The translations under genes and the position numbers were made by a program. Shown piece after piece: positions 3,772 to 33,122 of a DNA stretch of 64,000 bases. How positions within the stretch are numbered: position 1 is the stretch's first letter; each line of letters starts with the position of its first letter. Location: positions 1-64,000 of the IMG/VR virus record IMGVR_UViG_3300020123_000589; one strand, 5' to 3'. A model generated the notes under the pieces. That model was not told the DNA's origin. It saw only the letters and a list, made by a program, of their open reading frames with translations, and did no database searches. This DNA is from a virus.

Positions 3772-4349
3772 GTAAAAAACAAAAGTATAGTGACAATTGT
3801 ATACTCGTAATTGATATCGAGGCAACATGCCTTGAAAACCAGAATGGTCAACCACAAGAAGAATTTATTAGCGAGATTATCGAAATTGGCTACGCCGTTC
3901 TGGATTACAAAATAAACGAAATTAAAGGAACGGGATCAATAATTATTAAACCCATACAATCAGTAGTTACGAAATTTTGTACTGATTTGACTGGACATAC
4001 TCAAGAATCTGTAGATCGTGGAATTTCTTTTGCAGAAGCATGTCAGACATTGCAAAGTGATTTGATGTCTGGTGGTAGGCTTTGGGCTTCCTACGGAAAT
4101 TACGACCTTGACATGTTTAAAAAGGAATGCCAGAGAAAGAACGTTAAGTATCCGTTTGTTGCACAGCACCTCAACATAAAAGCGATGGCGACTGTGCTTA
4201 ATGGCAGTGTTAATGGATTAGGACGCACCCTATCCTTACTCAAGATGAACTTTGAAGGGCGGCACCATTCAGGCCACGATGATGCTTACAACACTGCCAG
4301 GATTCTCCAGCATTACAAGAATAAATTTGGAGCACAAATTTTTGCATAA
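3768..4349 (+). CDS. DnaQ-like DEDDh 3'-5' exonuclease
   Basis: 193 residues covering one exonuclease domain. ExoI is VIDIEATCLE (Asp16, Glu18), ExoII is around NYDLDM (Asp113), and ExoIII is HHSGHDDAYNTA (His167, Asp171). The family removes 3' nucleotides from DNA or RNA using two metal ions. The I/V-DIEAT form is commoner in ERI1/RNase T-like enzymes than in polymerase proofreading subunits, so an RNA substrate is possible. Its 3' end overlaps the next small gene. Confidence 0.85.
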   Translation: MSKKQKYSDNCILVIDIEATCLENQNGQPQEEFISEIIEIGYAVLDYKINEIKGTGSIIIKPIQSVVTKFCTDLTGHTQESVDRGISFAEACQTLQSDLMSGGRLWASYGNYDLDMFKKECQRKNVKYPFVAQHLNIKAMATVLNGSVNGLGRTLSLLKMNFEGRHHSGHDDAYNTARILQHYKNKFGAQIFA

Positions 4350-4539
4350 TTGTATCTGCGGTCATTCTGAAGAAGAACACGAAGCACATAAACTTAGTAT
4401 GATGAATCTAGGTGGTGTTCATTGGTGTAGAGGGTGTTCTATTGAAAATAGATTTTCTCCTCCAAACATGTTTCACGATTTCAAATTAGACAATCTCTCT
4501 TATATTGAAGATTTAGCTAAGAAAAAGGGCCTAATTTAG
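4342..4539 (+). CDS. CGH zinc-finger protein with DNL tail
   Basis: 65 residues from TTG 4342, chosen because TTTGGAG precedes it and the product begins MHN-C-I-C-G-H like the paralogue at 24425. N-terminal CICGH...EEH plus WCRGC form a zinc site. The C-terminus HDFKLDNLSYIEDLAKKK ends in GLI. This is the first clear member of a family in which different N-terminal domains share the tail DNLxYIExLAKxRxLI. Function unknown. An in-frame TTG at 4327 is an alternative start. Confidence 0.75.
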   Translation: MHNCICGHSEEEHEAHKLSMMNLGGVHWCRGCSIENRFSPPNMFHDFKLDNLSYIEDLAKKKGLI

Positions 4540-4564
4540 TTGATTTTTAGATGCAAAATAACCC

Positions 4565-4593
4565 TTGACAAACCTTCCTTTTTCTGCTATACT
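4565..4593 (+). promoter_or_regulatory. Sigma70-type promoter
   Basis: TTGACA (4565-4570), 17-bp spacer, TATACT (4588-4593). Predicted start of transcription is near 4600, giving a leader with AAAGGAG before the gene at 4632. Confidence 0.85.
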
Positions 4594-4631
4594 TAAGAGA
4601 CAAGGAATAGAAGCAAAAAGGAGATCAAACT

Positions 4632-5216
4632 ATGACTCACAAGAGCGTAATTTTGTCTGCCATTGCCCTTGCTTCAATTCTTACCCTGGGGATCGAGAAA
4701 ATTATTTATTTGCCCAGCACAATGAAGGTGTATCGTCGTAATTTGAAGGATCTGCATTATTACAAAGAAGCTACACTCTTAACTGACTGTCTTTATCGTG
4801 AAGGCACTCCAGTCAGCACTAGAACGATTAAAGAAACTCTTGAAGCTATTGATAAGTTTGTACCTAAGTATTTTCCCAACGGTCCTTACACTCGTGAAGA
4901 TTTTGTAGCTATGGCATGGTTGGAATCTGGGTTTAATCAGTTTGAAGTGGGAACTCATGGAGAGAAAGGTATTTTCCAAATCATGCCGGATGAATACCAG
5001 GATAACAACATCAAATTAAATAAATACGATATTGCTACCAACACTGAACTTTGTATGACTGTTTTGCAAGCAAAGTTTCACAAATTTCCAGATTATAAAA
5101 AAGCCGTGATTGCTTACAATGGGGTTGTTCGAAATAAAAACGGCAAATGGTCAGAGAAGTATTGGAAAGGTTTTGAGAAGCGCAGATCTGTGGTGGATAC
5201 GTTATTTAATTCATGA
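4632..5216 (+). CDS. Lytic transglycosylase (SLT domain)
   Basis: 194 residues. An N-terminal hydrophobic segment (VILSAIALASILTLGI) acts as membrane anchor or signal. The soluble-lytic-transglycosylase domain covers about 70-175: MAWLESGFN with catalytic Glu98, GIFQIMP at 113-119 and IAYNG at 160-164. It cleaves the MurNAc-GlcNAc bond in peptidoglycan, forming 1,6-anhydroMurNAc. With its own early-type promoter it could act in lysis or local wall remodelling; virion-borne use cannot be excluded. Overlaps the next gene by 4 nt. Confidence 0.85.
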   Translation: MTHKSVILSAIALASILTLGIEKIIYLPSTMKVYRRNLKDLHYYKEATLLTDCLYREGTPVSTRTIKETLEAIDKFVPKYFPNGPYTREDFVAMAWLESGFNQFEVGTHGEKGIFQIMPDEYQDNNIKLNKYDIATNTELCMTVLQAKFHKFPDYKKAVIAYNGVVRNKNGKWSEKYWKGFEKRRSVVDTLFNS

Positions 5217-5416
5217 GGATAAAAGTTTTATGCAGATGTGGGCATGAGAAACGGGAACACCAAAAAGATTATATAGTTTGCGTTGGATGTTTTACTAAAT
5301 ATGAAGGTTGGAAGAGGAACAAAAATACAAAAGCTTTGGAACTTGGATGTAGAAAGTTTGTTCCAGATAACCTGGATTACATAGAAAAGTTGGCAAAGAG
5401 TAGAGGACTTGTGTGA
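5213..5416 (+). CDS. CGH zinc-finger protein with DNL tail
   Basis: 67 residues. LCRCGHEKREH and CVGC form the zinc site; the end is PDNLDYIEKLAKSRGLV. The ATG overlaps the transglycosylase stop. The DNL codons (GAT AAC CTG) differ from those of the 4342 paralogue, showing long divergence at DNA level. Confidence 0.8.
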   Translation: MRIKVLCRCGHEKREHQKDYIVCVGCFTKYEGWKRNKNTKALELGCRKFVPDNLDYIEKLAKSRGLV

Positions 5417-6133: not shown

Positions 6134-6670
6134 ATGAACCCAATTAAAGCGCAACGTACCTGGCATTCCCTTTCAACCAAATGGATTAATGCTTCTCCCT
6201 ACGGGATGGGAAGTTTTTCTCCACGACCCAAAAGAAATTCAAGACGCAAATCTAAAGTGAAGCGAGGGTTGTTGGTGAATTATATTCCCGTAGAAGTGGT
6301 AAACGCTATCACAGGTGAAGTATCAAAAGGGTATATGCGTGACCTTTCAATTAAACGGTTGCGTAAATGGCTTGAATTCCACAACCACAAAGCCCAGGTG
6401 GAGCAAGTGTACCTTTCAAATAAAACTACCCTTCAGCACTTATCTGAAAAGGATATAAAAGATTTCCCCATCCTAATAAAATTAGGCAGGTATCAAGTAC
6501 CCTACTTGATCGACCACGCTAGAGCGGATATAATTGTACGTGGTAGGAAAACAGTGACACTCAATTTAAAAACTGTGGATAATTTAAAATACCTTGAAAC
6601 TATAGCAGATAGAAAGAGTAAAGTGATTAGATTATTTAATAAAATTAAGAAAACTAAAAAGTCTAAATGA
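6134..6670 (+). CDS. Hypothetical basic protein with internal DNL motif
   Basis: 178 residues. The basic N-terminus (PRPKRNSRRKSKVKRG) is followed by an unrecognised domain. Near the end is VDNLKYLETIADRKSK, a variant of the DNL tail, followed by a lysine-rich extension. If homologous, the tail here tolerates extra C-terminal residues. The basic ends suggest nucleic-acid binding. Confidence 0.6.
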   Translation: MNPIKAQRTWHSLSTKWINASPYGMGSFSPRPKRNSRRKSKVKRGLLVNYIPVEVVNAITGEVSKGYMRDLSIKRLRKWLEFHNHKAQVEQVYLSNKTTLQHLSEKDIKDFPILIKLGRYQVPYLIDHARADIIVRGRKTVTLNLKTVDNLKYLETIADRKSKVIRLFNKIKKTKKSK

Positions 6671-6846
6671 TAAATAAACAGTGGATGAATGATTTTGCTT
6701 ATGAGGTAAAGAAATGTCCCAAATGCCATCAAAAATCCTTCTGCTTGATTTTTAGCAGCGAAGAGTTTGGAGATGAGTGGGAATGTGCTGAAGACAGGTG
6801 TGGATACAATCCAAAGTGTTCATGCAACAATTGTAAAATAAGATGA
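6667..6846 (+). CDS. Zinc-ribbon protein, 59 aa
   Basis: Seven cysteines: CPKCHQKSFC, CAEDRCG and CSCNNC, enough for one or two zinc sites. The ATG overlaps the previous stop and its own TGA overlaps the next ATG, so it is embedded in a translationally coupled chain. Unknown role. Confidence 0.6.
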   Translation: MINKQWMNDFAYEVKKCPKCHQKSFCLIFSSEEFGDEWECAEDRCGYNPKCSCNNCKIR

Positions 6847-7157
6847 AGTATCCAGGTGATTGGTTTTGTAAATTGTGTGAAAAACAATTTAAAAGCCACC
6901 TTCAAATCGGTGAAGAAGCGATTGAGTTTGATTACCTAAATGAAAACGGTGGTAAAATTAAAGTAAAAAACAACAATAATTGGTGTTTTGAAGATGTCCC
7001 CACCGCCAATACAGAACAAAATAGTTGGGTATTTGAGCCTGTAGATAACTTGACCCAGGTTGAACTATTGGCTAAACAGAGGGGCATAACAAAAGGGAAA
7101 AACCCTAGTAAAATACCCCTTGACAAACAAGAAGATAGCAGGTATACTATAAAATAA
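6843..7157 (+). CDS. Zinc-finger protein with internal DNL motif
   Basis: 104 residues. FCKLCEKQFKSHL gives a C-x2-C...H finger. VDNLTQVELLAKQRGI at about 67-82 matches the DNL tail but is followed by 22 more residues. A sigma70-type promoter lies in the DNA of this extension, so the extension may be an older stop pushed downstream to accommodate the promoter (inference). Confidence 0.65.
   Translation: MKYPGDWFCKLCEKQFKSHLQIGEEAIEFDYLNENGGKIKVKNNNNWCFEDVPTANTEQNSWVFEPVDNLTQVELLAKQRGITKGKNPSKIPLDKQEDSRYTIK
7120..7148 (+). promoter_or_regulatory. Sigma70-type promoter
   Basis: TTGACA (7120-7125), 17 bp, TATACT (7143-7148), inside the end of the upstream gene. Predicted leader of about 27 nt contains GAGAAGG before ATG 7182. 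Confidence 0.85.
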
Positions 7158-7181: not shown

Positions 7182-7475
7182 ATGAAAGGTAAGAGCTTAA
7201 TAGGAGGTGTGGAACAAGAGGGTAAGAGGATTTACCCTCCAGATTGGCCTTGTAAAGCTTGTGGTAGAGCTTGGAAGGTTCATGTGAAAAAAGGGGAGCC
7301 CTCTTACGATAAAAGTCCTTGGCTAGATAATTGGTGTTGGGGACGGATTAAAGGATCAGACAAATTAATGGAGAATCAATTAAAGAAGCTACTCTTCTTC
7401 ATACCTGTAGACAATCTTTCATACATTGAGATTAAAGCCAAGTCAGCAGGGAAGTTGAATAAAAGGAATAAATAA
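7182..7475 (+). CDS. Zinc-finger protein with DNL tail
   Basis: 97 residues. PCKACGRAWKVHV is an N-terminal finger and NWCWG a further Cys. The end is VDNLSYIEIKAKSAGKLNK, a DNL tail in which the usual LI terminus is replaced by a lysine-rich end. First gene behind the 7120 promoter. Confidence 0.7.
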   Translation: MKGKSLIGGVEQEGKRIYPPDWPCKACGRAWKVHVKKGEPSYDKSPWLDNWCWGRIKGSDKLMENQLKKLLFFIPVDNLSYIEIKAKSAGKLNKRNK

Positions 7476-12700: not shown

Positions 12701-12829
12701 ATGAAGCCTGATGAAATTATGTTGTTGGCAATAGCCGGAGTACTTATTGGAATATTGTGCAACTTTCCAGTTCTAGCTTTCTCGTGCGTTGTTCTAGCTG
12801 GTATTTCCTTTTGGATTGGTATTCAATGA
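12701..12829 (+). CDS. Small membrane protein, 42 aa
   Basis: Two hydrophobic segments in 42 residues (IMLLAIAGVLIGILC and FSCVVLAGISFWIGI). Its stop overlaps the next ATG. Unknown. Confidence 0.5.
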   Translation: MKPDEIMLLAIAGVLIGILCNFPVLAFSCVVLAGISFWIGIQ

Positions 12830-13314
12830 CATCTGCATGGGGACAGTTCAGGGATTTTATTAATTCCAAAGAAATTGGATATACCTTCAATCGTCAAAAA
12901 TTATTTGAGAGTCTTTCTAGAATTAACCCATCTACTATAGATGCGTATCGTTCTCTCATTCAACAAGCTAAGTTTATTGTGAGAGTCGGTCGTGGACAGT
13001 ATAAACTTATTTCGCATTTGCCAGAAGGATTGACAATGGGTTCTCTCTTTGCGTTACTGTGTGGAGACAATCTTACGTATGTTGAATCGCTGCAAAATCA
13101 AAAAGATTTTAAAATACTTAAAGATCAATTTATAAAAGAACGTAAGGTAGTACTTTCACAATTGATAGAAGATGCTCAAAAGCATGTCGAGTATGCACAA
13201 ACGATTGAGTTTCCAGCTCTTGGATTAAAGAAACAGATACGAACCTGGAAACGGGAACTGGAGAAAACTCCCAATCCAACCAAAGCATGGCTACAAAAGA
13301 AGAACAGTAAATGA
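12826..13314 (+). CDS. Winged-helix-like protein with internal DNL motif
   Basis: 162 residues from ATG 12826. Residues about 15-65 resemble a winged helix (a three-helix start, then FIVRVGRGQYKLISHLP as the wing). GDNLTYVESLQNQKDFK at about 84-100 matches the DNL tail but continues into a basic coiled region. This is the only DNL protein with a clear DNA-binding-like domain. Confidence 0.55.
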   Translation: MTSAWGQFRDFINSKEIGYTFNRQKLFESLSRINPSTIDAYRSLIQQAKFIVRVGRGQYKLISHLPEGLTMGSLFALLCGDNLTYVESLQNQKDFKILKDQFIKERKVVLSQLIEDAQKHVEYAQTIEFPALGLKKQIRTWKRELEKTPNPTKAWLQKKNSK

Positions 13315-15016: not shown

Positions 15017-15322
15017 ATGGATGACAAGAAATTTAAAGAAATGGCTGAGTTTGAAGCGCAGAATGATTGTACCGTAATTTCTCCGTTCTTTGCTAGGCAA
15101 ATTGAAGAAGCAAAACAAGCCGAAGAACAAATTAAACAAAAGCAACATTTCTTTTATGTTATCTTACAAGACAGGGAAAGAAAGATTGTTGACATTACAC
15201 ATTACAACGATTATGATGTTGCTTTAATGCGCGGAATGGAAAAGTCTAAAGAGACTGGAACATACTGGTCGATCTATTCCCTTAATGGTAAATTTGTGGA
15301 TGGCAACTTTGTTGGAAAATAA
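15017..15322 (+). CDS. Hypothetical protein
   Basis: 101 residues. A helical Gln/Lys-rich first half (EEAKQAEEQIKQKQ) is followed by a small alpha/beta domain (FFYVILQDRERKIVDITHYN). Unknown. Confidence 0.6.
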   Translation: MDDKKFKEMAEFEAQNDCTVISPFFARQIEEAKQAEEQIKQKQHFFYVILQDRERKIVDITHYNDYDVALMRGMEKSKETGTYWSIYSLNGKFVDGNFVGK

Positions 15323-15500
15323 GTTACCTTGTATTATTTGTAACAAAGAATGGATTGAGCATCATCTAGCAGAATATTATGGAGATTTGTTTCTCCCTTT
15401 TTGTTATCCTGTTAAATCAAATAATCCTATGGCACATTATACACCAATGAATAATCTGGATTACATAGAGTACCTTGCAAAACAGAGGAACTTGGTGTAA
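15300..15500 (+). CDS. Zinc-finger protein with DNL tail
   Basis: 66 residues from ATG 15300. LPCIICNKEWIEHH is the finger (C-x2-C...H-H) and FCYP adds a Cys. It ends MNNLDYIEYLAKQRNLV, with Asp replaced by Asn in the DNL core. Overlaps the preceding gene by 23 nt. Confidence 0.7.
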   Translation: MATLLENKLPCIICNKEWIEHHLAEYYGDLFLPFCYPVKSNNPMAHYTPMNNLDYIEYLAKQRNLV

Positions 15501-15504
15501 AGTT

Positions 15505-15747
15505 ATGAGAAGGGATTATTTAGATGGGTCGTGGAATTGGGACATATGTGGCAATTGTAAACATCACCATCTCAGCCATACAAATTGGTCCGAGGTAGGA
15601 TCAGGAAAATTGGAATGGGTAGAACGTTGTCGTGTTACACATTACGGACCATCTAAATTAGAAAAGCAATGTAGCTGTACTGAATGGGTACCAAAAGATA
15701 ATCTGGACCTCATTGAATTTTTAGCTGAAAAAAGAAATTTAGTTTAA
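15505..15747 (+). CDS. Zinc-finger protein with DNL tail
   Basis: 80 residues. WDICGNCKHHHLSH is a CGNCKHxxxxH finger; further C at RCRV and CSC. Ends KDNLDLIEFLAEKRNLV. Immediately follows another member, so these two are adjacent paralogues sharing only the finger and the tail. Confidence 0.7.
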   Translation: MRRDYLDGSWNWDICGNCKHHHLSHTNWSEVGSGKLEWVERCRVTHYGPSKLEKQCSCTEWVPKDNLDLIEFLAEKRNLV

Positions 15748-19508: not shown

Positions 19509-20667
19509 TTTAATAATTACCTGTCAGCCAATCGATCTCAGAGATTTCAAAGAGATTATTGGAGAGCTTTTGCCTTTAGAAACCTGTCAACAAGATCCAA
19601 CATGGCATGGCGAGGGTGACGTACTTTCCCATACCAATCTTGTGATGAAAGAAACTCTTGAACAGATGCAAAATGTCCGTGAAGGTTTCCCAAGAATTGC
19701 TTTATACATCGCCGCACTTTTGCACGACATCGGCAAACCAGATACAGCCAAACCAAAGAAGAATGGATTTAATAGCTTTCACGGTCATGAGAAGGCAGGT
19801 GTATGGAGAGCAAAAGAATTCCTAAAGAAATACTTCCCACAATTTAATTTTCGCCAACGTGATCTTATTTTAAATTTGGTTGAGTATCACGGCCATCCCA
19901 AACGAATGATTGAAGATGGTTCTAATGATGATAAATTTAAAAAGCTTTCTCTTGAAGTTCCTACACATCTAGTTTATAATTTAGAGATGGCTGATTTCAA
20001 AGGCCGTATTGCAAACGACATTCCAAAGGCACTTGTTGTTCTCGATCAGTTTAAAAAGCGATGTGAGGACTTAAATATTTATGGGAAGACTTATCAAATT
20101 CCTAACTCTAAAGACCTTACAAATCTCCAGTATTCTATTTTTCGATGGAACATTCTGATGCACCATAAGAAAGAAGATGATCAAAAAGAGATTGACAGGA
20201 TTATCAAATTGACCGATAAGCCGAATCATCCTTTAGAACTTACCCTATTGATTGGTGTTCCTGGGAGTGGTAAGACCACGTATCGAAACACACTGACAAA
20301 TAGCAAGGTTATTAGCATGGATGAAGAAAGAATTAGGTTGTGTGGTGATGTAAATGATATGTCCAAAAACCAGGAAGTATTTAATAACTGCTTTAAAGAG
20401 TTGAATAAGAGCTTAAGAGTTGGTGAGAATGTTATTTGGGATGCCACCAACCGCACAAGAAAAATACGTAAAACGCTCATAGATGCCGCTAGAAGCCACG
20501 GAGCCTGGGTTTCCATCATCTACTGGGATCTTACGATAGAAACCCTCTTAAAACGAAACGCTGAGCGTGAGAAGGTCGTTCCAGATGACATTGTGTGGCG
20601 GTTTTACAAGGACCTAGAAACCCCAGCTTCATATGAGTATGAGAAGTTGCATGTGTTTGAAGAATGA
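19483..20667 (+). CDS. HD-domain + polynucleotide kinase fusion
   Basis: 394 residues. The HD phosphohydrolase domain (about 20-200) has His50, HD at 81-82 (LLHDIGKP), HGHEK at 100-104 and EYHGHP at 135-139. The kinase domain (about 253-394) has the P-loop GVPGSGKT at 258-265, SMDEERIR and IWDATNRTRKIRK. In T4 Pnk the 5'-kinase is joined to a HAD-type 3'-phosphatase; here an HD domain takes that place. The likely task is healing RNA ends for the Rnl1 ligase at 11171 (inference). Confidence 0.85.
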   Translation: MNTVEQFHNLIITCQPIDLRDFKEIIGELLPLETCQQDPTWHGEGDVLSHTNLVMKETLEQMQNVREGFPRIALYIAALLHDIGKPDTAKPKKNGFNSFHGHEKAGVWRAKEFLKKYFPQFNFRQRDLILNLVEYHGHPKRMIEDGSNDDKFKKLSLEVPTHLVYNLEMADFKGRIANDIPKALVVLDQFKKRCEDLNIYGKTYQIPNSKDLTNLQYSIFRWNILMHHKKEDDQKEIDRIIKLTDKPNHPLELTLLIGVPGSGKTTYRNTLTNSKVISMDEERIRLCGDVNDMSKNQEVFNNCFKELNKSLRVGENVIWDATNRTRKIRKTLIDAARSHGAWVSIIYWDLTIETLLKRNAEREKVVPDDIVWRFYKDLETPASYEYEKLHVFEE

Positions 20668-20849
20668 TTTGTTATAAATGTAAACACGAGGAGTATGAGC
20701 ATAGGTGTTCAGAAGCATACCCCAACATCCCATTATGTTGGTATTGCTTTGGAAGTGTTAACCCCTGGAAAATAGATCCTTACCACAATTTCCAAATGGA
20801 CAATTTGGATCTTATAGAACATCTAGCTAAAGAACGTAATTTAATATGA
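20664..20849 (+). CDS. Zinc-finger protein with DNL tail
   Basis: 61 residues. MICYKCKHEEYEHRC and LCWYC form the zinc site; ends YHNFQMDNLDLIEHLAKE then RNLI. Overlaps the kinase gene by 4 nt and the next gene by 4 nt. Confidence 0.8.
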   Translation: MICYKCKHEEYEHRCSEAYPNIPLCWYCFGSVNPWKIDPYHNFQMDNLDLIEHLAKERNLI

Positions 20850-20986
20850 AAGATTATTCACCCATTCCAATTGATATAGAAGCATTCAAGGCCGCTTTAA
20901 AATCTGAATTTGACAATGGCTACATAGACAATCTTCGATATATTGAACTTCTTGATTGGTTAAAACAATATGAAAAAGAAACCTGA
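20846..20986 (+). CDS. DNL-tail-only protein, 46 aa
   Basis: Twenty-odd residues (MKDYSPIPIDIEAFKAALKS) lead straight into YIDNLRYIELLDWLKQYEKE. No zinc finger and no SH3-like part. As an almost free tail it could compete with the tailed proteins for a shared partner. Missed by a 60-codon cut-off. ATGA overlap upstream; overlaps the next gene by 17 nt. Confidence 0.7.
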   Translation: MKDYSPIPIDIEAFKAALKSEFDNGYIDNLRYIELLDWLKQYEKET

Positions 20987-21293
20987 ATTTGTTGAGTGGG
21001 TAGATTTGAAAGTGGGGGATTTCGTAGAATCAAAAGACTCTTATCTTTTCTGCTTTTCCATTGGAAATGTTTTTGGTGGGCCAAGCTGTTTGGGACAAGG
21101 CAAACCAAAAGTTAATAACCCCGATATTGAATACATAAATCAGTGGCTTATTTTTGGAAAGTATAAACGATTTACACCATCAAAACCATTTATAAAATTG
21201 TGTAAGAAATTACTGAAATACAATCTTAAACAAAAGCATATAGACAACCTCTCATACATAGAATCCCTTGCGTCCCTTAAAAAATATGACTGA
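20970..21293 (+). CDS. SH3-like paralogue 3 with DNL tail
   Basis: 107 residues. WVDLKVGDFVESKDSYLF is the cluster opening; then FTPSKPFIKLCKKLLKYN, then IDNLSYIESLASLKKYD. The helix before the tail is shared with the neighbours at 18821, 21480 and 22157. Confidence 0.7.
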   Translation: MKKKPEFVEWVDLKVGDFVESKDSYLFCFSIGNVFGGPSCLGQGKPKVNNPDIEYINQWLIFGKYKRFTPSKPFIKLCKKLLKYNLKQKHIDNLSYIESLASLKKYD

Positions 21294-21483
21294 GTATTGC
21301 ATCTGCGGTCATAAAATAAGTAAACATACTTCTTTTGCTGTGTTAAGTACTTCTTCTAGCGCACAATATTGTTCGGAATGCTTTCACTCTAAAAATTTTA
21401 TACCTGGGCATTGGGTACACCCGTTCAAACTTGATAATCTCAAACTGATAGAAGACTTAGCAAAACAAAAGAATTTGATATGA
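21286..21483 (+). CDS. CGH zinc-finger protein with DNL tail
   Basis: 65 residues. YCICGHKISKHTS and YCSEC form the zinc site; HPFKLDNLKLIEDLAKQKN ends in LI. Inserted between two SH3-like paralogues. ATG 21286 overlaps the upstream stop. Confidence 0.8.
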   Translation: MTEYCICGHKISKHTSFAVLSTSSSAQYCSECFHSKNFIPGHWVHPFKLDNLKLIEDLAKQKNLI

Positions 21484-21809
21484 CACCCATCAATGAAGTG
21501 CCAGTTGGAAAATTTTGTAGGTTTGCTGGAAATGTTGTTTATATTTATAAAAATAACTTTAAGGATTTTTATGGAGTAATTCCTGTAGTTGGAGTCGTGC
21601 CAAGGTATAAAAAATTTGGATATAGTGTATACGTTTACAAGCGAATTAAAAACGAATGGATTAAAGCAGCAAGAAAACACATAGATAGAATTTACAAAAC
21701 TCCAGATCACATCTTAATGAATAACGGAGTTGTGGTAGAATCTGAGGTAAGGCTAGACAACCTCACTTATATCGAGAATATAGATATTTTAAAATCGTAT
21801 GGAATTTAA
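21480..21809 (+). CDS. SH3-like paralogue 4 with DNL tail
   Basis: 109 residues. VPVGKFCRFAGNVVYIYKNN is the variant opening (VGKF for VGDF). A helix (WIKAARKHIDRIYK) precedes LDNLTYIENIDILKSYGI. Confidence 0.7.
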   Translation: MTPINEVPVGKFCRFAGNVVYIYKNNFKDFYGVIPVVGVVPRYKKFGYSVYVYKRIKNEWIKAARKHIDRIYKTPDHILMNNGVVVESEVRLDNLTYIENIDILKSYGI

Positions 21810-22185
21810 ACCAGGAGATATTTTATACCGTAAGTATTCAGACAAGAACGATTTGTATTGTGTAATTGTTATTACAGAAGGTCCGTTCAATATCGGACAA
21901 AATGTTAAATTTGTACGTTCCTTACCATACTATTATTCCCCTGAATTTCATTCGGGAGTACCGAAACTTTTAGGCGAATCAAGCAGTTCAGTAGAAACTT
22001 GGTACATCAAAGTGGATTTAAATAACTACGATATTAAAGATAAATTTTTAAAGAAAATAAAAGATTTTTTGGAAAACAACTTGGGCAAATTAGTAGTGAG
22101 CGACACAATTTTAGACAATCTTCTTTACATTGAAATCCTTGCAGAACTTAAGAAATATGAACCCAAAGAAAAAGACGATAAATAA
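21799..22185 (+). CDS. SH3-like paralogue 5 with DNL tail
   Basis: 128 residues. FKPGDILYRKYSDKNDLY opening, beta-rich middle, helix KDKFLKKIKDFLENN, then LDNLLYIEILAELKKYE with eight extra residues. Confidence 0.7.
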   Translation: MEFKPGDILYRKYSDKNDLYCVIVITEGPFNIGQNVKFVRSLPYYYSPEFHSGVPKLLGESSSSVETWYIKVDLNNYDIKDKFLKKIKDFLENNLGKLVVSDTILDNLLYIEILAELKKYEPKEKDDK

Positions 22186-22495
22186 TTTAAATGTTGGGAA
22201 GTTTGTAAAGTGCAACGGCTCAACGCTATACACATACAAATCAATGAATTCATACATGAATTATCCTTCTCTTGACGGTTTACTAATTATCGAGAGACAC
22301 CCAGAAAAAACTTTAACATGGACAGATCTTAAAAATTATTCTTTTATATCCAAACCAAAAAAGAAACACATTGACAACGCTATTAAGCAGTTAAAGAATA
22401 CATTAAAATTTCAAGGTATTGATAATCTTTCTTATGTAGAAAACCTTGACATCTTGAAAAATTACCTTAAATCTGATATAGTAGAAGAAGATTAA
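22157..22495 (+). CDS. SH3-like paralogue 6 with DNL tail
   Basis: 112 residues. LNVGKFVKCNGSTLYTYKS opening, helix KKKHIDNAIKQLKNTLKF, then IDNLSYVENLDILKNY with a short acidic end. The coding region for the end contains the 22454 promoter. Confidence 0.7.
   Translation: MNPKKKTINNLNVGKFVKCNGSTLYTYKSMNSYMNYPSLDGLLIIERHPEKTLTWTDLKNYSFISKPKKKHIDNAIKQLKNTLKFQGIDNLSYVENLDILKNYLKSDIVEED
22454..22482 (+). promoter_or_regulatory. Sigma70-type promoter
   Basis: TTGAAA (22454-22459), 17 bp, TATAGT (22477-22482). Leader to ATG 22502 would be about 13 nt with no clear ribosome binding site. Confidence 0.6.
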
Positions 22496-23069: not shown

Positions 23070-23567
23070 ATGGTCTTTATTAGGCAAGTATACATGCAAG
23101 AATATAATCAAAAATATTATAGTACGAATAAAAAACAATTGAACGAGCAAAAACAAAAAAGACGTGATGATGGCTACGGAACCTTCCATGGGCATGTTGA
23201 AGCTATACATGATCCTATTAGGCGATATGCTTCTCAATGGCATATTCCAATTGACAGTCTCAAGAAATTTAAACGTTGGTCCTTTAATGATCCTGAGTAT
23301 GAAAAATTATTTAAAGTGTGGGAAGAATCTGGATTTGAGAAAGCATTGGCTCCCGTAGTTATGAGACGGATTAAAAAGCGTGGGTTTGTACTTGACAATT
23401 TGTTCTGGTCTACCAAAGGGCAACATGCTTGGTGGAGTGGAATATTGGATGATATTAAAAACATGAGCAAAGAGATGGAGAAGAGACAGACTAAAAATAA
23501 TCCAGCTAGTGAAAATGAGCAACAAGAAATGATTAACAGATTGAAAGCAAAGAGGAAAAGCAAGTGA
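23070..23567 (+). CDS. Hypothetical, possibly endonuclease-derived protein
   Basis: 165 residues. The basic helical start (EYNQKYYSTNKKQLNEQKQK) resembles that of the HNH protein just upstream, and KKRGFVLDNLFWSTKGQ recalls the segment following the HNH core in phage endonucleases, but no catalytic His/Asn set is seen. It may be a decayed or accessory partner. Regulated by the extended -10 promoter and inverted repeat. Confidence 0.5.
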   Translation: MVFIRQVYMQEYNQKYYSTNKKQLNEQKQKRRDDGYGTFHGHVEAIHDPIRRYASQWHIPIDSLKKFKRWSFNDPEYEKLFKVWEESGFEKALAPVVMRRIKKRGFVLDNLFWSTKGQHAWWSGILDDIKNMSKEMEKRQTKNNPASENEQQEMINRLKAKRKSK

Positions 23568-23800
23568 ATAATGGCAATCTTCACATCCCGTACAATATGA
23601 AATGTGGTGGATGCCAGCATGATGCTTCAGATCATTGGGCCAGTTGGAATGGAGTTGTGGTTGCTGCTGGAACATGTTATAGTTGTATAAAGGAACAGCC
23701 TACCTGTAATTTTGGCCATTGTGCATCTTTTAAATTTGATAATTTAAATTATGTTGAAGTGATGGCAGAACGAAGGGAGCAGAAAAAGAATTTAATATGA
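23564..23800 (+). CDS. Zinc-finger protein with DNL tail (GTG start)
   Basis: 78 residues from GTG 23564. KCGGCQHDASDHW and TCYSC form the zinc site; FKFDNLNYVEVMAERREQ then KKNLI ends it, with three residues inserted before the terminal LI. Stop overlaps the helicase-loader start. Confidence 0.75.
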   Translation: MNNGNLHIPYNMKCGGCQHDASDHWASWNGVVVAAGTCYSCIKEQPTCNFGHCASFKFDNLNYVEVMAERREQKKNLI

Positions 23801-24432
23801 TTCGTGCAAGGATTAATGAGGAGCCATTCGAATATCGTGATGCTTCATTGAATTCCTATGCCTTCTCTCAGGAATCCATAAAGATTCTACCAACGCTTAA
23901 GACTTTCTCAAATCGGGTAGAATCAATGTCCAAGGGTCTTAATCTCTTTCTTTGGTCGCCTAATAATGGCGCAGGGAAGACGTACCTTTCGTATGCCATT
24001 TTAAAGCAAGTAAGACAATTTGAGCAGCCTTTGTGGATCAGAGATAAAGAAGCCACACTGCCGTGCGGCAATGTAAAAACAATGGCTATTAATTTTAAAC
24101 ATTTTGTAGACCTTTGCAAAACATTCGATGATGGTGCGAAGAAATACCAGGAAGCCCTTTATAATGCTGATTATCTATTGATTGATGAAGTATCGTCGAA
24201 CATGCTTTCCCAGAATCCCCATGAAGATAAGAGACAGCTACTGGTTGTATTAGATGACAGGTTATCAGAGTTTCGTCCAACAATTATTACAAGCAACAAC
24301 TCACCTGAAGAGTTTCTAAATGCTTTTGGCCCAAACATTTATTCCAGGTTACAATCTCGAACAGAGTTCATCGAAGTTCCTGGACGTGATATGAGGCCGA
24401 TTTTAAAGATGGTGGATGCAGAGAATGCATAA
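23797..24432 (+). CDS. DnaC/IstB-type AAA+ helicase loader
   Basis: 211 residues. Walker A SPNNGAGKT at 54-62, Walker B YLLIDEV with Asp130-Glu131, sensor I TIITSNNS near 169 and a C-terminal SRLQSR box. The family loads a replicative helicase onto DNA using ATP. It sits between DNL genes and is translationally coupled to both. No helicase is in this window, so its partner could be elsewhere in the phage or the host DnaB. Confidence 0.85.
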   Translation: MIRARINEEPFEYRDASLNSYAFSQESIKILPTLKTFSNRVESMSKGLNLFLWSPNNGAGKTYLSYAILKQVRQFEQPLWIRDKEATLPCGNVKTMAINFKHFVDLCKTFDDGAKKYQEALYNADYLLIDEVSSNMLSQNPHEDKRQLLVVLDDRLSEFRPTIITSNNSPEEFLNAFGPNIYSRLQSRTEFIEVPGRDMRPILKMVDAENA

Positions 24433-24634
24433 TTTGTGTAAGTGTGGGCATTCTTTAGAAGAACATACAAGCCCCAATCTATATTTAGACGATTATGGAA
24501 ACATGACCAACTTCGTTGGTAGGTGTAATCATGATAAATCTTATTTTAAAAATATGTGTAGTTGTGGTTGGTTTAGCGAAGTGGATAATTTAACTCACAT
24601 TGAATTGCTTGCAAAGCAGAAAGGTTTAGTGTGA
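24425..24634 (+). CDS. CGH zinc-finger protein with DNL tail
   Basis: 69 residues. MHNLCKCGHSLEEHT, RCNH and MCSCGW; ends VDNLTHIELLAKQKGLV. Start of the same MHN form as the 4342 protein. Overlaps the helicase-loader gene by 8 nt. Confidence 0.8.
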   Translation: MHNLCKCGHSLEEHTSPNLYLDDYGNMTNFVGRCNHDKSYFKNMCSCGWFSEVDNLTHIELLAKQKGLV

Positions 24635-24849
24635 AGAAAAAGAACAAAGATATTCTTTGCCAATGTGGGCATGAGAAGCATTTTCACAAAACATTAGGAT
24701 CTCCAGTTTGGGATGAATTTTGTAATGGAGGCAAAGTTAGGGATCGAAGTATACACGGTAGTTATATTTATGTTTGCATTTGTTCAGAATATAAACCAGA
24801 TAACCTTCTCCACATAGAAACCATTGCTAAAAAGAGAAAACTAATATGA
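24631..24849 (+). CDS. CGH zinc-finger protein with DNL tail (GTG start)
   Basis: 72 residues. LCQCGHEKHFHK, FCNGG and VCICSEY; ends PDNLLHIETIAKKRKLI. GTGA overlap with the previous gene. The four neighbours from 24425 to 25567 all carry the tail. Confidence 0.8.
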   Translation: MKKKNKDILCQCGHEKHFHKTLGSPVWDEFCNGGKVRDRSIHGSYIYVCICSEYKPDNLLHIETIAKKRKLI

Positions 24850-25130
24850 ATAACCACAAACTTTTTCGCCACATGTTTGAATTGCCAGAAGAAGATAGAG
24901 GAGATATTAATCAGCTTGTTGATATTCTTAGTGGTGCGGAGCACGACTTCCGAAATGTAGGAGTTGAGCTTACATACGAAGGATTTAAAGAATATTTTAA
25001 AAGAATGCTTGGCCCTTTGCCTGGAGCTGCTAGTAGTACTCGATCAAACTATTCCAGGTTATTAAAAATCCTGGAAGGTGACAACTTGGATATCATTGAA
25101 GAAGCAGCAGAGAAAAAAGGACTATTGTGA
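24846..25130 (+). CDS. Helical DNL-tail protein
   Basis: 94 residues without Cys. A helical domain (LFRHMFELPEEDRGDINQL) is followed by GDNLDIIEEAAEKKGLL. The tail form GDNLDIIE is shared with the proteins at 25127 (NNLDIIE) and 30113, forming a subgroup. Confidence 0.7.
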   Translation: MNNHKLFRHMFELPEEDRGDINQLVDILSGAEHDFRNVGVELTYEGFKEYFKRMLGPLPGAASSTRSNYSRLLKILEGDNLDIIEEAAEKKGLL

Positions 25131-25567
25131 AAACTCCAGGTAATTATGGAGAACTCATTGCAAACTATATAGGTGGAACTTTGTGGTCTTACGTTACATA
25201 TGGAGATTACCAAGGAGATTATGTAGCCTTAATTTATAAAGATTCTAATTTGCTAGTGTACAAAGGATTATATGGTTCTTGCGGTGGTTGTGATTGGTTA
25301 TCTGATTATTATAGTGACGAAGAAATCCCAGAAGAAAAGATTAAAGAATACATGATGGATATACAACCATTTCTTACGATTCCGTCTGATTCCCTTCCTA
25401 AAACCGAAGGGGATTTGATTGCGCTGTTGCCAGCAAATACGAGAATTTGGTTGGACGATGAATACGCAGAAGTTAAAGTGCGTGACATATTGAAACAAAT
25501 AAATGAACCTACATGTAATAATTTAGATATTATCGAAACAGAAGCAAAGGGTAAAGGATTGATATGA
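25127..25567 (+). CDS. Hypothetical DNL-tail protein (GTG start)
   Basis: 146 residues. Beta-rich domain opening GELIANYIGGTLWSYVTYGD with CGGC, later a SH3-like ALLPANTRIWLDDEYAEVKV, then CNNLDIIETEAKGKGLI. Its ending TTGATATGA gives the start of the ThyX-like gene. Confidence 0.65.
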   Translation: MKTPGNYGELIANYIGGTLWSYVTYGDYQGDYVALIYKDSNLLVYKGLYGSCGGCDWLSDYYSDEEIPEEKIKEYMMDIQPFLTIPSDSLPKTEGDLIALLPANTRIWLDDEYAEVKVRDILKQINEPTCNNLDIIETEAKGKGLI

Positions 25568-26230: not shown

Positions 26231-26794
26231 ATGAGCAATTCATCTATAGTAGGTTCCAATACGACCTCAACATGGGGCTCGGCCACATATTCAACAGGTC
26301 AATTCTTGTCTGCTTCGTGTAGTGCATGTTATCAAACGTATAATGTCAACAGTGGACATTATTGCCAAGGCACTACGTTGCCAATTACTTGGACTACTAC
26401 GACAGGTACCACCCTTCAAAATATGGGCACCATTACCTTTGGATCGAATTTTAAAAATGTAAAAGAGATTACAACAGATATTGAGCTGATTTATGAATGG
26501 AGTGACTCGTCATTTAATATGAAACTTCCTGCGAAATTTGGGGATTGTTTTCTAAAGGTGGGTTACACTTGGTCGCCATTGTACCCACTCATCTTCTCTG
26601 CCATTGAGAACGATTCTAAAGAATTATCCTTTCATTTGGTTACAGGTATTACAGATAAATCGTTTGAAGGAGACACAGTAATTTTGAAATCAGTAACATC
26701 AACTAAGATTGAAGATAATTTAACTTTATTACAGTTAGCAGAAAAGGTTCGTAACCATTTTAAAGAATATGATAAAACCAATCCTACTTTATAA
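26231..26794 (+). CDS. Hypothetical protein
   Basis: 187 residues. Ser/Thr-rich start with CSACYQTY and HYCQG (possible zinc site), a beta-rich centre and a C-terminal helix. EDNLTLLQLAEKVRNHF near the end resembles the DNL tail but lacks the I-E pair. Preceded by a degenerate late promoter, so possibly expressed late. Overlaps the deformylase gene by 26 nt. Confidence 0.55.
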   Translation: MSNSSIVGSNTTSTWGSATYSTGQFLSASCSACYQTYNVNSGHYCQGTTLPITWTTTTGTTLQNMGTITFGSNFKNVKEITTDIELIYEWSDSSFNMKLPAKFGDCFLKVGYTWSPLYPLIFSAIENDSKELSFHLVTGITDKSFEGDTVILKSVTSTKIEDNLTLLQLAEKVRNHFKEYDKTNPTL

Positions 26795-27240: not shown

Positions 27241-27432
27241 ATGGAAGAGATTTGTATTTGTGGTCACGAGATAAATGAACATCATGATGGTTCAATTTCA
27301 AACATACCAGTTTGTAATTTGTGTAGAGAATTGAATATGGGTATTGGTGAAGACGATTGTTATCACGAATTTAAACTTGACAATTTACGATGTATTGAAC
27401 AAGAAGCTAAACGCAGAAATTTAATAAACTAA
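27241..27432 (+). CDS. CGH zinc-finger protein with DNL tail
   Basis: 63 residues. ICICGHEINEHHD and VCNLC form the zinc site; HEFKLDNLRCIEQEAKRR ends NLIN, one residue past the usual Ile. Confidence 0.8.
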   Translation: MEEICICGHEINEHHDGSISNIPVCNLCRELNMGIGEDDCYHEFKLDNLRCIEQEAKRRNLIN

Positions 27433-28678: not shown

Positions 28679-29197
28679 ATGAGTGAAGAAATGATACAAA
28701 ATCCAGAACCAGTAAAAGAAACTGTAACGATTAGCAAAGAGCAACTTGAAGCTATGCAAGAACAGCTTAGAGTTCTTTCTCAACAATTCCAAAAAGATGT
28801 TGTTCATCCAGTTCAACCTATTGCACCAGCACAAACAGTCATTACGGCTGATTCTAATGCGGCTAAACCAGAACAACCTAAAGAAGTTATTTTAGAGGAA
28901 GTAGATACAGCTTCTTTATTTAAACAGAATCCTTGGAGCATTGGAAATAAAGTAAGGGTGTCTGAAAAATATCCTCAGATTCAGGGTGGTGTAAATTGGA
29001 AAGGCCGTGTAGGAACTATCAACAAGATCCTGAAAGATCCTTCGGGCGTAAAGATGGTTGAGGTTGCTTTTGGTGATGTTCAAGTACCTTTTCATCGTCC
29101 ACACCCAACAAAGCCTGGAGTGACACAAAAAGGTTATCGTATTCAAAAAGCCGTCCAAACATTCGATGATTCCTGTTTGGAGCCTGTATACGAATAA
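28679..29197 (+). CDS. Coiled-coil plus SH3-like protein
   Basis: 172 residues. Helical coiled segment at about 18-42 (SKEQLEAMQEQLRVLSQQF), a Pro/Ala linker, then NKVRVSEKYPQIQGGVNWKG leading to a KOW/SH3-like barrel (RVGTINKIL). Similar KOW-like segments are in the 1168-residue protein at 38337. Confidence 0.6.
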   Translation: MSEEMIQNPEPVKETVTISKEQLEAMQEQLRVLSQQFQKDVVHPVQPIAPAQTVITADSNAAKPEQPKEVILEEVDTASLFKQNPWSIGNKVRVSEKYPQIQGGVNWKGRVGTINKILKDPSGVKMVEVAFGDVQVPFHRPHPTKPGVTQKGYRIQKAVQTFDDSCLEPVYE

Positions 29198-29385
29198 TGA
29201 AGTCATCTTTAGAAGATAAATGCGTCTGCGGCCATACTTATGGGAGACATTCAAAAGCTCCTTTTAGATATTGTTTTTTAGATTGTTATTTTGAAAATAA
29301 ACCTCAAGAAGAATGGCAGCATACGTTCAAGTTAGATAACCTCACCTTAATTGAAAAGCTTGCTAAAGAACGAGGGCTTGTTTGA
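29197..29385 (+). CDS. CGH zinc-finger protein with DNL tail
   Basis: 62 residues. CVCGHTYGRHSK and YCFLDC form the zinc site; HTFKLDNLTLIEKLAKERGL ends in V. Confidence 0.8.
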   Translation: MKSSLEDKCVCGHTYGRHSKAPFRYCFLDCYFENKPQEEWQHTFKLDNLTLIEKLAKERGLV

Positions 29386-30112: not shown

Positions 30113-30418
30113 ATGAGCAACCTTCACAAGATTTTCAAAGAGTTACAGAAGCTCGACTTCCAAGATTTTGATGCTGTATGTGATGCTTGGCGCGAGCACT
30201 ACAATGTTAAAATTAATTGTAAAAATATGGGGATTAAATACTCAGATAAATACTTAGTTAATTCTCTTACAAAGAGACGAAATTCACTAACCAATGCTGT
30301 TGCTACTTGCCCACCAACACTAAATCAAAGCGGCAGAGATAAGAAAATTGAGCAAATTATTCTTGGAGATAATCTTGATATTATTGAAGAAACCGCAAAG
30401 AAGAAAGGATTGATATGA
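30113..30418 (+). CDS. Helical DNL-tail protein
   Basis: 101 residues without zinc ligands. A helical domain is followed by GDNLDIIEETAKKKGLI. Same tail subtype as 24846 and 25127. Its TTGATATGA end supplies the start codon of the site-2 protease gene. Confidence 0.7.
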   Translation: MSNLHKIFKELQKLDFQDFDAVCDAWREHYNVKINCKNMGIKYSDKYLVNSLTKRRNSLTNAVATCPPTLNQSGRDKKIEQIILGDNLDIIEETAKKKGLI

Positions 30419-31176
30419 TACTAAGCATTTTAGCCGTAGTTTTGGGACTCGCAGTAGTAATTGGAATTCACGAAGCTTCTCACATGCTTGTTTCTAAGTT
30501 GTTTGGTGTGAAGGTTTTAAAATTTTCTTTAGGGTTTGGACCCGTTCTTTTCTCCAAGAAGATTAAGGGAACATCTTATGAACTGGCCGCATTACCATTG
30601 GGTGGTTATGTACAGTGTTCAGGCGAGAACCCAGAAAGTAATGTAAAGGATGGTTTCTTCAGCCTACCCTGGTGGAAACGTTCTCTAATCGCTCTAGCTG
30701 GCCCTGTAGCGAACTTAATCCTTGGGTTTGGTCTTGTATTTGCATTACTTGTTTTATTCAAAGGTTGGCCCATTGTAGCAGGATTACAGAAAGCATGGGA
30801 ACTGTTTTCATTCGTTATTGTAACCACATTAAAATGGGTATTTGGGATGCTTCCAAAAACCTCTGAAGCAGTAGGTGGTACATCTGGATTATCTGGACCC
30901 ATTATGGTAACAAAGATACTCCTTTCTTCAGCAAGAGAAGGGGCAGCACAATTTCTATTTGTGTTATCTCTTATTTCTTTAAGCTTAGGGCTATTTAATT
31001 TGTTTCCGATTCCTGGGCTTGACGGAGCACATATCCTCATTTATATATTAGAAGGTGTATATGGTCGAAAATTTCCGTCCAAAGTGTATTATATTTGGAA
31101 TTTGATTGGAATAATTTTATTAGGAACATTAATGTTATTTATGTGTGGTATGGACATATTCAACTTATTTAAATAA
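30415..31176 (+). CDS. Site-2 (M50) intramembrane metalloprotease
   Basis: 253 residues with several transmembrane segments. HEASH at 19-23 supplies two zinc His and the catalytic Glu; NLFPIPGLDGAH at 195-206 supplies the zinc Asp. The family (RseP, SpoIVFB) cuts membrane-embedded substrates such as anti-sigma factors. It lacks the PDZ domains of RseP (about 450 residues). The hydrophobic order fits an RseP-like N-terminus followed by the LDG helix. A phage-encoded site-2 protease is unusual; substrate unknown, with host anti-sigma factor, signal-peptide remnants or a phage membrane protein as options. Confidence 0.88.
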   Translation: MILSILAVVLGLAVVIGIHEASHMLVSKLFGVKVLKFSLGFGPVLFSKKIKGTSYELAALPLGGYVQCSGENPESNVKDGFFSLPWWKRSLIALAGPVANLILGFGLVFALLVLFKGWPIVAGLQKAWELFSFVIVTTLKWVFGMLPKTSEAVGGTSGLSGPIMVTKILLSSAREGAAQFLFVLSLISLSLGLFNLFPIPGLDGAHILIYILEGVYGRKFPSKVYYIWNLIGIILLGTLMLFMCGMDIFNLFK

Positions 31177-31177
31177 T

Positions 31178-31897
31178 ATGAAAAAAGGTCAGTTAAAGCA
31201 ATTTTGTTCAAGAGGACATGATACTTTTGCAGTTGGGAAAGATAGAAATGGATATTGTAAACAATGCAAGAAAGAATGGCAGTCTTCTCCAAAGAATCAA
31301 TTTTGTCCTAAAGGGCATGATACATTTGTTACAGGAAGATACAAAAATGGACATTGTGTTGAATGCAAAAAAGAATGGAGTCGAGAATATATTATTATAT
31401 CACAGCCACAATTCTGTATGAATGGGCACGACACAAATATTTGTGGTAGACATAAAAATGGTAAATGTGCCGCTTGTGACAAACTTTCTAAGCAAAAAGG
31501 AAAAGAAAGAACTAATTTACATACCAAAAAGCGGTTATTGATTGATAGTTCTTTTAGGTTAAAAAAGAGATTACGCAGTAGGCTTAGAGAGGTTTTAAAA
31601 GAAAACAAAAAACAAGGTTCTGCCATTAAAAATTTAGGTTGTACAATCGAATTTTTGAAAAGGTATCTAGAGTTTAAATTTCATGATGGTATGACTTGGG
31701 ATAATTGGGGTAAAGTTTGGCAGTTGGATCATGTTGTGGCATTATGGAGATATGATTTAACAGACAAAGAACAATTCCTAAACGCCTGTCATTACACCAA
31801 TCTTCAGCCCCTAACTATTGAAGACCACAATAAGAAAAGCTCTGAAGATCTTAAAGATTTTTTTGCTCATCAAAGAAAATTAAAACTAAACGTATAA
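31178..31897 (+). CDS. HNH endonuclease with three GHD zinc fingers
   Basis: 239 residues. Residues 8-100 hold three copies of C-x2-GHD-x4-G[RK]-x3-G-x-C-x2-C ([33 protein letters not shown]). The C-terminal HNH has WQLDHVVALW, CHYTNLQPL and DHNKKS. Likely a mobile homing endonuclease in which the fingers recognise DNA. Inserted between the site-2 protease and a zinc protein. Confidence 0.8.
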   Translation: MKKGQLKQFCSRGHDTFAVGKDRNGYCKQCKKEWQSSPKNQFCPKGHDTFVTGRYKNGHCVECKKEWSREYIIISQPQFCMNGHDTNICGRHKNGKCAACDKLSKQKGKERTNLHTKKRLLIDSSFRLKKRLRSRLREVLKENKKQGSAIKNLGCTIEFLKRYLEFKFHDGMTWDNWGKVWQLDHVVALWRYDLTDKEQFLNACHYTNLQPLTIEDHNKKSSEDLKDFFAHQRKLKLNV

Positions 31898-32241
31898 TGA
31901 ATCCAAGAATAATCAACGATACATTTGAACAAGAGCAGCATATTTGTTCTTTTTGTGAGTGTCAATCTGGAAATCATCTAGTATTTCATCGTTGTCCTTT
32001 ATTCGACAATACTTTTATTTGTAGGGAAGATTGTCAAGTTTCTATGATGAAAGAGGATATCGATGTTCAAGTATCGGCTAAGCTTGGCAGACTTGTTACA
32101 AAAGAATTTATAAATGAAACATGCAGAAATTGCGGATTGAATAATGCTTGTCAAAATCAAAAACTTGCAGATCAATTAGAAAAAGGATTACCAGGAGATA
32201 ATAATGGGACACAACCAGAAGGGCCAGCTAAAACAAGATAG
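31897..32241 (+). CDS. Zinc-binding protein
   Basis: 114 residues. CSFCECQSGNHLVFHRC resembles the ClpX-type start, then C-x5-C (ICREDC) and CRNCGLNNAC: nine Cys, probably two zinc sites. It overlaps the ClpP-like gene by 38 nt; a functional link with it is possible but only by position. Confidence 0.6.
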   Translation: MNPRIINDTFEQEQHICSFCECQSGNHLVFHRCPLFDNTFICREDCQVSMMKEDIDVQVSAKLGRLVTKEFINETCRNCGLNNACQNQKLADQLEKGLPGDNNGTQPEGPAKTR

Positions 32242-32860
32242 CGACGAAGAAATTTCCCTTCCATCAAATGCCAATCCATTTGATGAATATGCTCACAATA
32301 CGTATGAAGAATTACTAGAAGAACGCATCATACTTTTGAATGGGGATATCAGAGAAAACATAATTGAAAGAGCAGCTATCCCTCTCATGCAAATGGCGCA
32401 AGAAAAAGGTCCCATTCAGATTTATGTGAATAGTTTTGGTGGGTCTATTAATGATAGCCAAGCCATCGTTGACATCATGCAAACGGTAGATAACCCAATT
32501 ATAACGATGGCTTTTGGTAAAGCAATGAGTGCTGGCTTCGATATCTTTTTAGCGGGTGATTACAGAATTGCATATCCAAATAGTTTGTTTATGTGTCACT
32601 CTGGGTCAGCTTCTTTGGGTCTTCAAACCCTCCCAGCATTAAATATTGAGGCCGAACTTCATAAAGAATACTTTAAACGTTGGTCATCGTTCTACGCATC
32701 CCGAACCCAGATGTCAGAGAAGGAATGGTTAGATATTTTAAATGTGGGTAATAACAGATATTTCTTTCCAGAAGAAGCACTTAAGCTTGGAATTGTACAT
32801 CATGTTGTTAGTCTTGGCAAGAAACCACCAATGAAACAAGTGCTTAAGATGAAATGGTAA
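32204..32860 (+). CDS. ClpP-like serine protease
   Basis: 218 residues. YEELLEERIILLNGDI, IYVNSFGGSINDSQAIVDIM, GKAMSAGFD (Ser109), FMCHSGSASLG (His132) and PEEALKLGIV line up with ClpP (family S14). The position of the catalytic Asp (ERDRF in E. coli ClpP) reads GNNRY here, so Asp appears to be Asn184. It may work as a Ser-His dyad, be weak, or be inactive and dominant in mixed rings. A prohead-protease role is possible since large phages use S14 relatives, but it is far from the portal gene. Confidence 0.85.
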   Translation: MGHNQKGQLKQDSDEEISLPSNANPFDEYAHNTYEELLEERIILLNGDIRENIIERAAIPLMQMAQEKGPIQIYVNSFGGSINDSQAIVDIMQTVDNPIITMAFGKAMSAGFDIFLAGDYRIAYPNSLFMCHSGSASLGLQTLPALNIEAELHKEYFKRWSSFYASRTQMSEKEWLDILNVGNNRYFFPEEALKLGIVHHVVSLGKKPPMKQVLKMKW

Positions 32861-32864
32861 TTTT

Positions 32865-33122
32865 ATGAAATTGTATATAGTGACTCTTTTCAGCCCCTCT
32901 GGACTAAGTGACCAAATTATTAAAGTATTTTCCACCAAAGATAATTTGGATAAGTGGATGGAATGTGCTAGGTTGATGGATAGGGAGCTTTACGGAGATC
33001 AGGGTAGGGATGTAACGCAATCCTATAAGATTAAATCAGCCGATTTAGACAATCTTGATTTCATAGAGTTGTACGCTGATGCTAGAAGTCTTGGAGCCCA
33101 AGTTAAATCTAGTCAACCTTAG
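32865..33122 (+). CDS. Small protein with DNL tail variant
   Basis: 85 residues. MKLYIVTLFSPSGLSD opening of an alpha/beta domain; LDNLDFIELYADARSLGA then seven more residues. The last DNL protein in the window, just before the first strong late promoter. Confidence 0.6.
   Translation: MKLYIVTLFSPSGLSDQIIKVFSTKDNLDKWMECARLMDRELYGDQGRDVTQSYKIKSADLDNLDFIELYADARSLGAQVKSSQP

Follow-up and report, generated by a model that had tools for sequence, protein, structure and literature searches.

A recurrent C-terminal peptide on dozens of small proteins of an uncultured tailed phage as a probable docking helix

Why would a phage end so many different small proteins in the same short peptide? The question is raised by bases 1-64,000 (the window) of IMG/VR virus record IMGVR_UViG_3300020123_000589, a sequence of 151,359 bases (G000) whose remainder we also read and translated, and whose terminase and portal matches identify an uncultured tailed phage. 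A first-pass annotation had proposed that at least 27 proteins in this window, with unrelated N-termini, share a C-terminal tail that might act as a common docking helix. We find that this tail, a 16-residue sequence with the consensus D-N-L-x-x-[IVL]-E-x-x-A-K-x-R/K-x-L-[IV], is common to at least 38 proteins of G000 and to 52 of a related virus, represented by two overlapping IMG/VR records (G001 and G002) that show no difference across the 2,994 bases of overlap retrieved. The tail is probably a portable docking helix, a short linear motif recognised by one common partner.

All 28 open reading frames (ORFs) of the first-pass annotation are present and lie on the + strand. The canonical [DN]NL..[IVL]E stands at or near the C-terminus in 26 of them; the protein at 18135 has PNL instead, and the motif in the ORF starting at 12757 is not a tail. 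Beyond the window, 12 further G000 proteins with the tail are found at 71-150 kb. In three translated proteomes (108,800 residues) the motif was observed 82 times, against 0.4 expected by chance, and it is enriched at C-termini rather than randomly scattered. At the DNA level, the pattern GAYAAYYTN8TNGAR gave 38, 40 and 32 forward matches in G000, G001 and G002, versus 0, 1 and 2 on the reverse strand, and a reversed-pattern control gave 0. When gapped motifs at C-termini were searched for blind, DNLxxxE came first both in G000 (37 proteins, 0.11 expected) and in G001 plus G002; nothing comparable came up in G006, a 210-kb relative, or for T4 and SPO1, of which 50-kb stretches were used. Possible diverged tails were also seen near the end of the window 26231-26794 protein (DNLTLLQLAEKVR, conserved in G2_14409) and in G000 117530-118222 (PTLDYIEAVAEARGLVK).

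The tail set analysed comprises 93 sequences (38 from G000, 21 from G001, 31 from G002 and 3 from G004). Asn2, Leu3 and Glu7 are invariant throughout, position 6 is always Ile, Val or Leu, and position 1 is Asp in 90 of the 93. The distance to the protein end is less uniform: it is exactly 16 residues for 57 tails, 52 of which end in Ile, Val or Leu, and differs for the other 36. In 15 pooled pairs, the proportion of differing synonymous sites (pS) in the seven-residue core was 0.86, that is, saturated, while that of nonsynonymous sites (pN) was 0.08. The resulting pN/pS of 0.09 compares with 0.26 for the remainder of the tail and 0.35 for the bodies. Likely orthologue pairs showed 82% identity in the seven core residues versus 55% in the bodies, and each of the six Leu codons occurs at the Leu of DNL. 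With so many codon spellings, saturated silent sites and a low core pN/pS, the tail is conserved as protein and was not recently copied, as the first-pass annotation had supposed.

The last residues are subject to an additional constraint. Among the G000 tail genes, 22 of 38 end in ATGA, GTGA or TTGA overlapping the next start, compared with 39 of 186 other genes, and the last tail codon is mostly ATA, GTA or GTG. The final Ile or Val is therefore partly forced by the ATGA/GTGA stop-start overlaps. Nevertheless, 74% of ATGA tail genes encode an I/V terminus versus 22% of other ATGA genes, which is more than the overlap imposes; the tail end is doubly constrained. Together with some core codon bias (GAC, CTC, TAC), these overlaps are what one might expect if the tail-coding sequence were kept as a DNA or RNA element, holding either the next gene's ribosome-binding site and overlapping start or a site of recombination. 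We consider this very unlikely, as the core has many synonymous spellings and is kept in tails without an overlapping next gene, and the terminal I/V exceeds the ATGA expectation. For the core, a purely nucleotide-level element is rejected by the pN/pS value.

What does the tail sit on? After removal of the tails, phmmer clustering placed 58 of the 93 bodies in one zinc-finger superfamily (CxCGHxxxxH..C..C..C..F). An SH3-like group has about 12 members by alignment and is less tight in the tail-stripped clustering. The other bodies comprise a related pair (24846/30113), together with its orthologues, and various small families or singletons; among the carriers are two membrane proteins, in which the tail is placed after long hydrophobic stretches. 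Comparing body groups with hhalign gave probabilities below 2%, except for a weak kinship between the zinc-binding group and a second zinc-binding group. Thus, alignment does not unite the bodies into an ancestral family of which the tail would be a residue. The claim of unrelated N-termini holds between body groups, but not protein by protein, since about two thirds of the carriers belong to one zinc-finger family and about one eighth to one SH3-like family. In one case the addition of the tail can be seen directly: the protein at 25127-25567 (+) consists of a phrog_28969-type domain plus the tail NNLDIIETEAKGKGLI (25517-25567), and three homologues from Seuratvirus, an E. coli phage group, stop within about a residue of the tail start. 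This indicates that the tail is an added module there.

The supposition that no established family has this tail also held, as no match spanning it was found in Pfam, in PHROGs or in the PDB by sequence and fold. Pfam gave no family below E 0.05 for the ten carriers tested, significant PHROG matches were limited to the bodies of a few carriers, and PDB profile matches to the tail were at chance level (PEA-15 aligns to the motif start at E 0.16). An INPHARED search with whole zinc-finger proteins returned nothing significant. By sequence and fold, the tail lies outside every family in the libraries searched, although the principle of a shared terminal peptide is itself already known. We found no description of shared C-terminal motifs in phage proteins, nor a comparably large tail set on phage accessory proteins, in the literature searched, which did not cover subscription papers.

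Among IMG/VR records the tail is confined to one lineage, and in G000 largely to part of the genome. Strict tail patterns run over IMG/VR recovered this lineage only, plus a few isolated matches (one in G003, singletons) that are not C-terminal tails; contig L070, which overlaps the end of G000, bears the same two tail genes. In G006 we detected no tail, no zinc-finger or SH3-like carrier family and no common C-terminal motif, and G005, a 38-kb relative, is also without the tail, with the caveat that G006 and other comparison records may be incomplete. G006 has capsid-region genes, portal, terminase, polymerase, RecA and helicases in common with the tail-bearing viruses. Within G000, the structural block (33-112 kb) contains 1 of the 38 tail genes, compared with 68 of 224 + strand ORFs of at least 45 residues (P = 9e-6). 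As the tail genes avoid this block, we consider the carriers to be accessory genes and, judging solely from position, probably early ones.

To what shape does the tail correspond? In AlphaFold2 models built from alignments of own-lineage sequences, the zinc-finger carrier 24631 has a helix at 58-68 (local predicted local distance difference test score, pLDDT, ~79-86) and the SH3-like carrier 21799 has one at 107-120 (local pLDDT ~78-89). Both helices start right after Asp1, and the tail end is the best-scored end in both models, which represent two unrelated folds; neither model had a PDB fold match. Asp1 would cap a short amphipathic helix, with L3, I6 and A10 together with E7 as the putative contact face. 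We hypothesize that Asn2, Leu3, Ile6, Glu7 and Ala10 would form one conserved face that binds the same partner in every carrier. The N-terminal domains, which vary (zinc fingers, SH3-like barrels, membrane anchors and others), would each perform a separate job or bind a separate target. The carriers would then constitute a lineage-specific toolkit of small accessory proteins with a variable head and a constant plug, probably used early in infection and possibly for takeover. As is characteristic of short linear motifs, the same residues occur on bodies without common ancestry and are under protein-level selection. Docking to a shared partner is the likeliest reason why one constant, strongly conserved end recurs on many heads that evolve fast and are unrelated to one another. 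One concrete, though rather unlikely, candidate for this partner would be the phage's own ClpP protease, with host or phage AAA+ partners. The docking helix of the first-pass annotation therefore fits best, even though its 27 unrelated N-termini were overstated. Three points weigh against docking. With mean pLDDT values of 62 and 71, the models reach medium confidence and fail to discriminate a free tail from one packed on its own domain; the repetition is partly descent and not repeated recruitment, two thirds of the copies being one paralogous family; and the C-terminal half of the tail is more variable, partly shaped by the overlapping start of the next gene. A membrane-targeting helix was judged unlikely, since the tail is also kept by carriers with hydrophobic membrane stretches of their own.

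Another explanation is degradation: the tail would be a degron, or the carriers would be adaptors delivering host targets to a ClpP-containing protease, in which two phage ClpP-type subunits could pair with host ClpX, ClpA or ClpC. Each tail-bearing virus has two ClpP-type genes and the possibly incomplete G006 has none. In G000 these are ClpP-type protease 1 (PF00574; 32204-32860, +), a candidate partner only, and a canonical ClpP outside the window (G000:123551-124168), which matches a solved ClpP structure at E = 5e-47. The latter is 98% identical to its G002 counterpart with saturated silent sites (pS 0.74, pN 0.029), the strongest constraint among the non-structural genes. However, ClpP is generally well conserved and more than 50 other genes have the same presence/absence pattern; ClpP is consequently a lead only. 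The tail itself resembles the ClpX C-terminal degrons of ssrA, MuA and FtsZ in being a C-terminal peptide found on unrelated proteins, and over half of all tails close with basic residues and then L-[IV], in loose resemblance to the MuA degron RRKKAI (given, as is the FtsZ peptide, in PMC8138137). It differs in that the inner DNLxxIE core, not the end, is what stays invariant, and that the 36 tails mentioned above overrun or fall short of residue 16, many of them without a hydrophobic end. Since ssrA- and MuA-type degrons are recognised at the extreme C-terminus, the tail departs from this type in the position of its conserved residues. A mimic of the FtsZ C-terminal peptide (..DYLDIPAFLRKQAD) was rejected, because the tail has no Pro after Ile as in the LDIPxFLR core and has an invariant Glu at position 7. 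A precedent for phage proteins acting on a host Clp protease, and a model for the ClpP explanation, is SPO1 Gp53 (PMC6873191), which its abstract presents as a single 25-kDa adaptor-like protein for ClpCP, with no shared tail mentioned there. Overall, degradation or adaptor delivery seems to us an unlikely, though tangible, account of the tail.

The tail could also be a loading signal that takes small proteins into the capsid, or into some other phage compartment, for injection with the DNA. A ClpP-like protease adjoins the structural block, where some phages have their prohead protease. The logic is that of known systems: encapsulin C-terminal targeting peptides (PMC8346489) dock unrelated proteins to one partner, and the T4 capsid-targeting sequence (PMC9958956), about ten residues conserved between phage internal proteins, directs them to one place. 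However, the encapsulin peptides have another sequence and cargo encoded beside the shell gene, whereas the tail is found on 40-50 carriers per genome that lie away from the capsid genes. The T4 signal is N-terminal, has few carriers and serves head assembly, whereas the tail is C-terminal, with 1 of 38 carriers in the structural block. Moreover, G006 has the same capsid, portal and terminase genes, two carriers are membrane proteins, and it would be unusual for one virion to hold 40-50 kinds of cargo, all of which makes packaging improbable. Indeed, the tail does not fully share the defining features of encapsulin cargo peptides, the T4 head signal or Clp degrons. Finally, the amphipathic helices might pair with each other into homo- or hetero-oligomers of carriers with no separate hub. 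The amphipathic pattern and the co-occurrence of about 40 copies per genome are consistent with such assembly, but Asp1, Asn2 and Glu7 would seem, by their sequence, to resemble specific recognition more than a coiled-coil repeat, and we give this possibility little weight.

Docking to a single partner would matter for a simple reason. Small phage accessory proteins are mostly without known function or homologues, and a tail common to about 40 of them reduces them to one question, that of the tail's binding partner, whose answer could assign one pathway to dozens of uncharacterised proteins at once. The tail could also be used as a search handle and an engineering tag. A further step, which we think rather unlikely, would be a plug-in adaptor system with one phage-encoded hub, possibly a ClpP-based protease, and some 40-50 interchangeable small adaptors that have the helix in common and a different host or phage target each. 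If true, such a system would parallel, in a bacterial virus, the ankyrin/F-box families of poxviruses.

The individual carriers of the window, all on the + strand, are as follows. Zinc-finger proteins are encoded at 4342-4539 (CxCGHxxxxH; tail DNLSYIEDLAKKKGLI, 4489-4539), 5213-5416 (DNLDYIEKLAKSRGLV, 5366-5416), 15285-15500 (NNLDYIEYLAKQRNLV, 15450-15500), 15475-15747 (DNLDLIEFLAEKRNLV, 15697-15747), 17926-18138 (DNLLYIERLAKERNLI, 18088-18138), 20664-20849 (DNLDLIEHLAKERNLI, 20799-20849), 21286-21483 (DNLKLIEDLAKQKNLI, 21433-21483; this start is that of the first-pass annotation, the longest ORF beginning at TTG 21268), 23564-23800 (DNLNYVEVMAERREQKKNLI, 23738-23800), 24416-24634 (DNLTHIELLAKQKGLV, 24584-24634), 24631-24849 (DNLLHIETIAKKRKLI, 24799-24849, the modelled helix 58-68), 27241-27432 (DNLRCIEQEAKRRNLIN, 27379-27432) and 29197-29385 (DNLTLIEKLAKERGLV, 29335-29385). 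The PNL variant PNLDLIEYLAEKRGLI (18312-18362) ends the zinc-finger protein at 18135-18362, whose relative G2_8199 has PNF. Zinc-finger-like proteins lie at 6843-7157, with DNLTQVELLAKQRGIT (7044-7157) 37 residues from the end, and at 7182-7475, with DNLSYIEIKAKSAGKLNKRNK (7410-7475).

SH3-like family proteins are found at 18812-19150 (tail DNLTYIEITARLREYEKEI, 19091-19150), 20970-21293 (DNLSYIESLASLKKYD, 21243-21293), 21480-21809 (DNLTYIENIDILKSYGI, 21756-21809), 21799-22185 (DNLLYIEILAELKKYEPKEKDDK, 22114-22185, the modelled helix 107-120) and 22130-22495 (DNLSYVENLDILKNYLKSDIVEED, 22421-22495). The paired own-family bodies are those at 24846-25130 (DNLDIIEEAAEKKGLL, 25080-25130) and 30113-30418 (DNLDIIEETAKKKGLI, 30368-30418). 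Singleton bodies occur at 19134-19508 (tail DNLSLIEVLDKLNEYSRAIS, 19446-19508) and at 32865-33122 (DNLDFIELYADARSLGAQVKSSQP, 33048-33122; the orthologue G2_21721 has DNLDFVD), and a 46-residue protein at 20846-20986 has the tail DNLRYIELLDWLKQYEKET (20927-20986). A 178-residue protein of its own family (6134-6670) has the tail-like DNLKYLETIADRKSKV (6578-6670) 30 residues from its end, which is kept in the orthologue G1_32676. The sequence excluded above (12757-13314, listed by the first-pass annotation as 12826) contains an internal DNLTYVE (13066), 82 residues before the end and at the same place in the orthologue G2_3519.

Several other features of the genome were observed. The replication and recombination set of G000 includes RecA, a DnaB-type helicase, an AAA ATPase, an SbcCD-like pair and an A-family DNA polymerase, the last with an N-terminal uracil-DNA-glycosylase domain in a single 883-residue ORF (G000:145192-147843; L006:1192-3843). 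Near the structural genes, window 48501-53870 encodes a 1789-residue protein whose segments resemble phosphoheptose isomerase, polynucleotide kinase and 2'-5' RNA ligase; it may be a large enzyme carried in the virion. A second paralogous gene set is scattered over the genome, with up to 8 related members, some resembling HNH homing endonucleases (window 31145-31897, 42424-43482 and 63842-64501; G000 118415-118984, 144387-145298, 150751-151245 and others). Two proteins about 90% conserved with G002 have no G006 match: a 388-residue multi-pass transporter-like protein (G000:125703-126869) and a small release-factor-like protein with a GGKGGQN motif (G000:141258-141662). The phage also has four tRNA genes, for Ala, Met, Asp and Thr, at L002:7244-7316, L002:7911-7986, L004:8891-8966 and L004:9084-9158.

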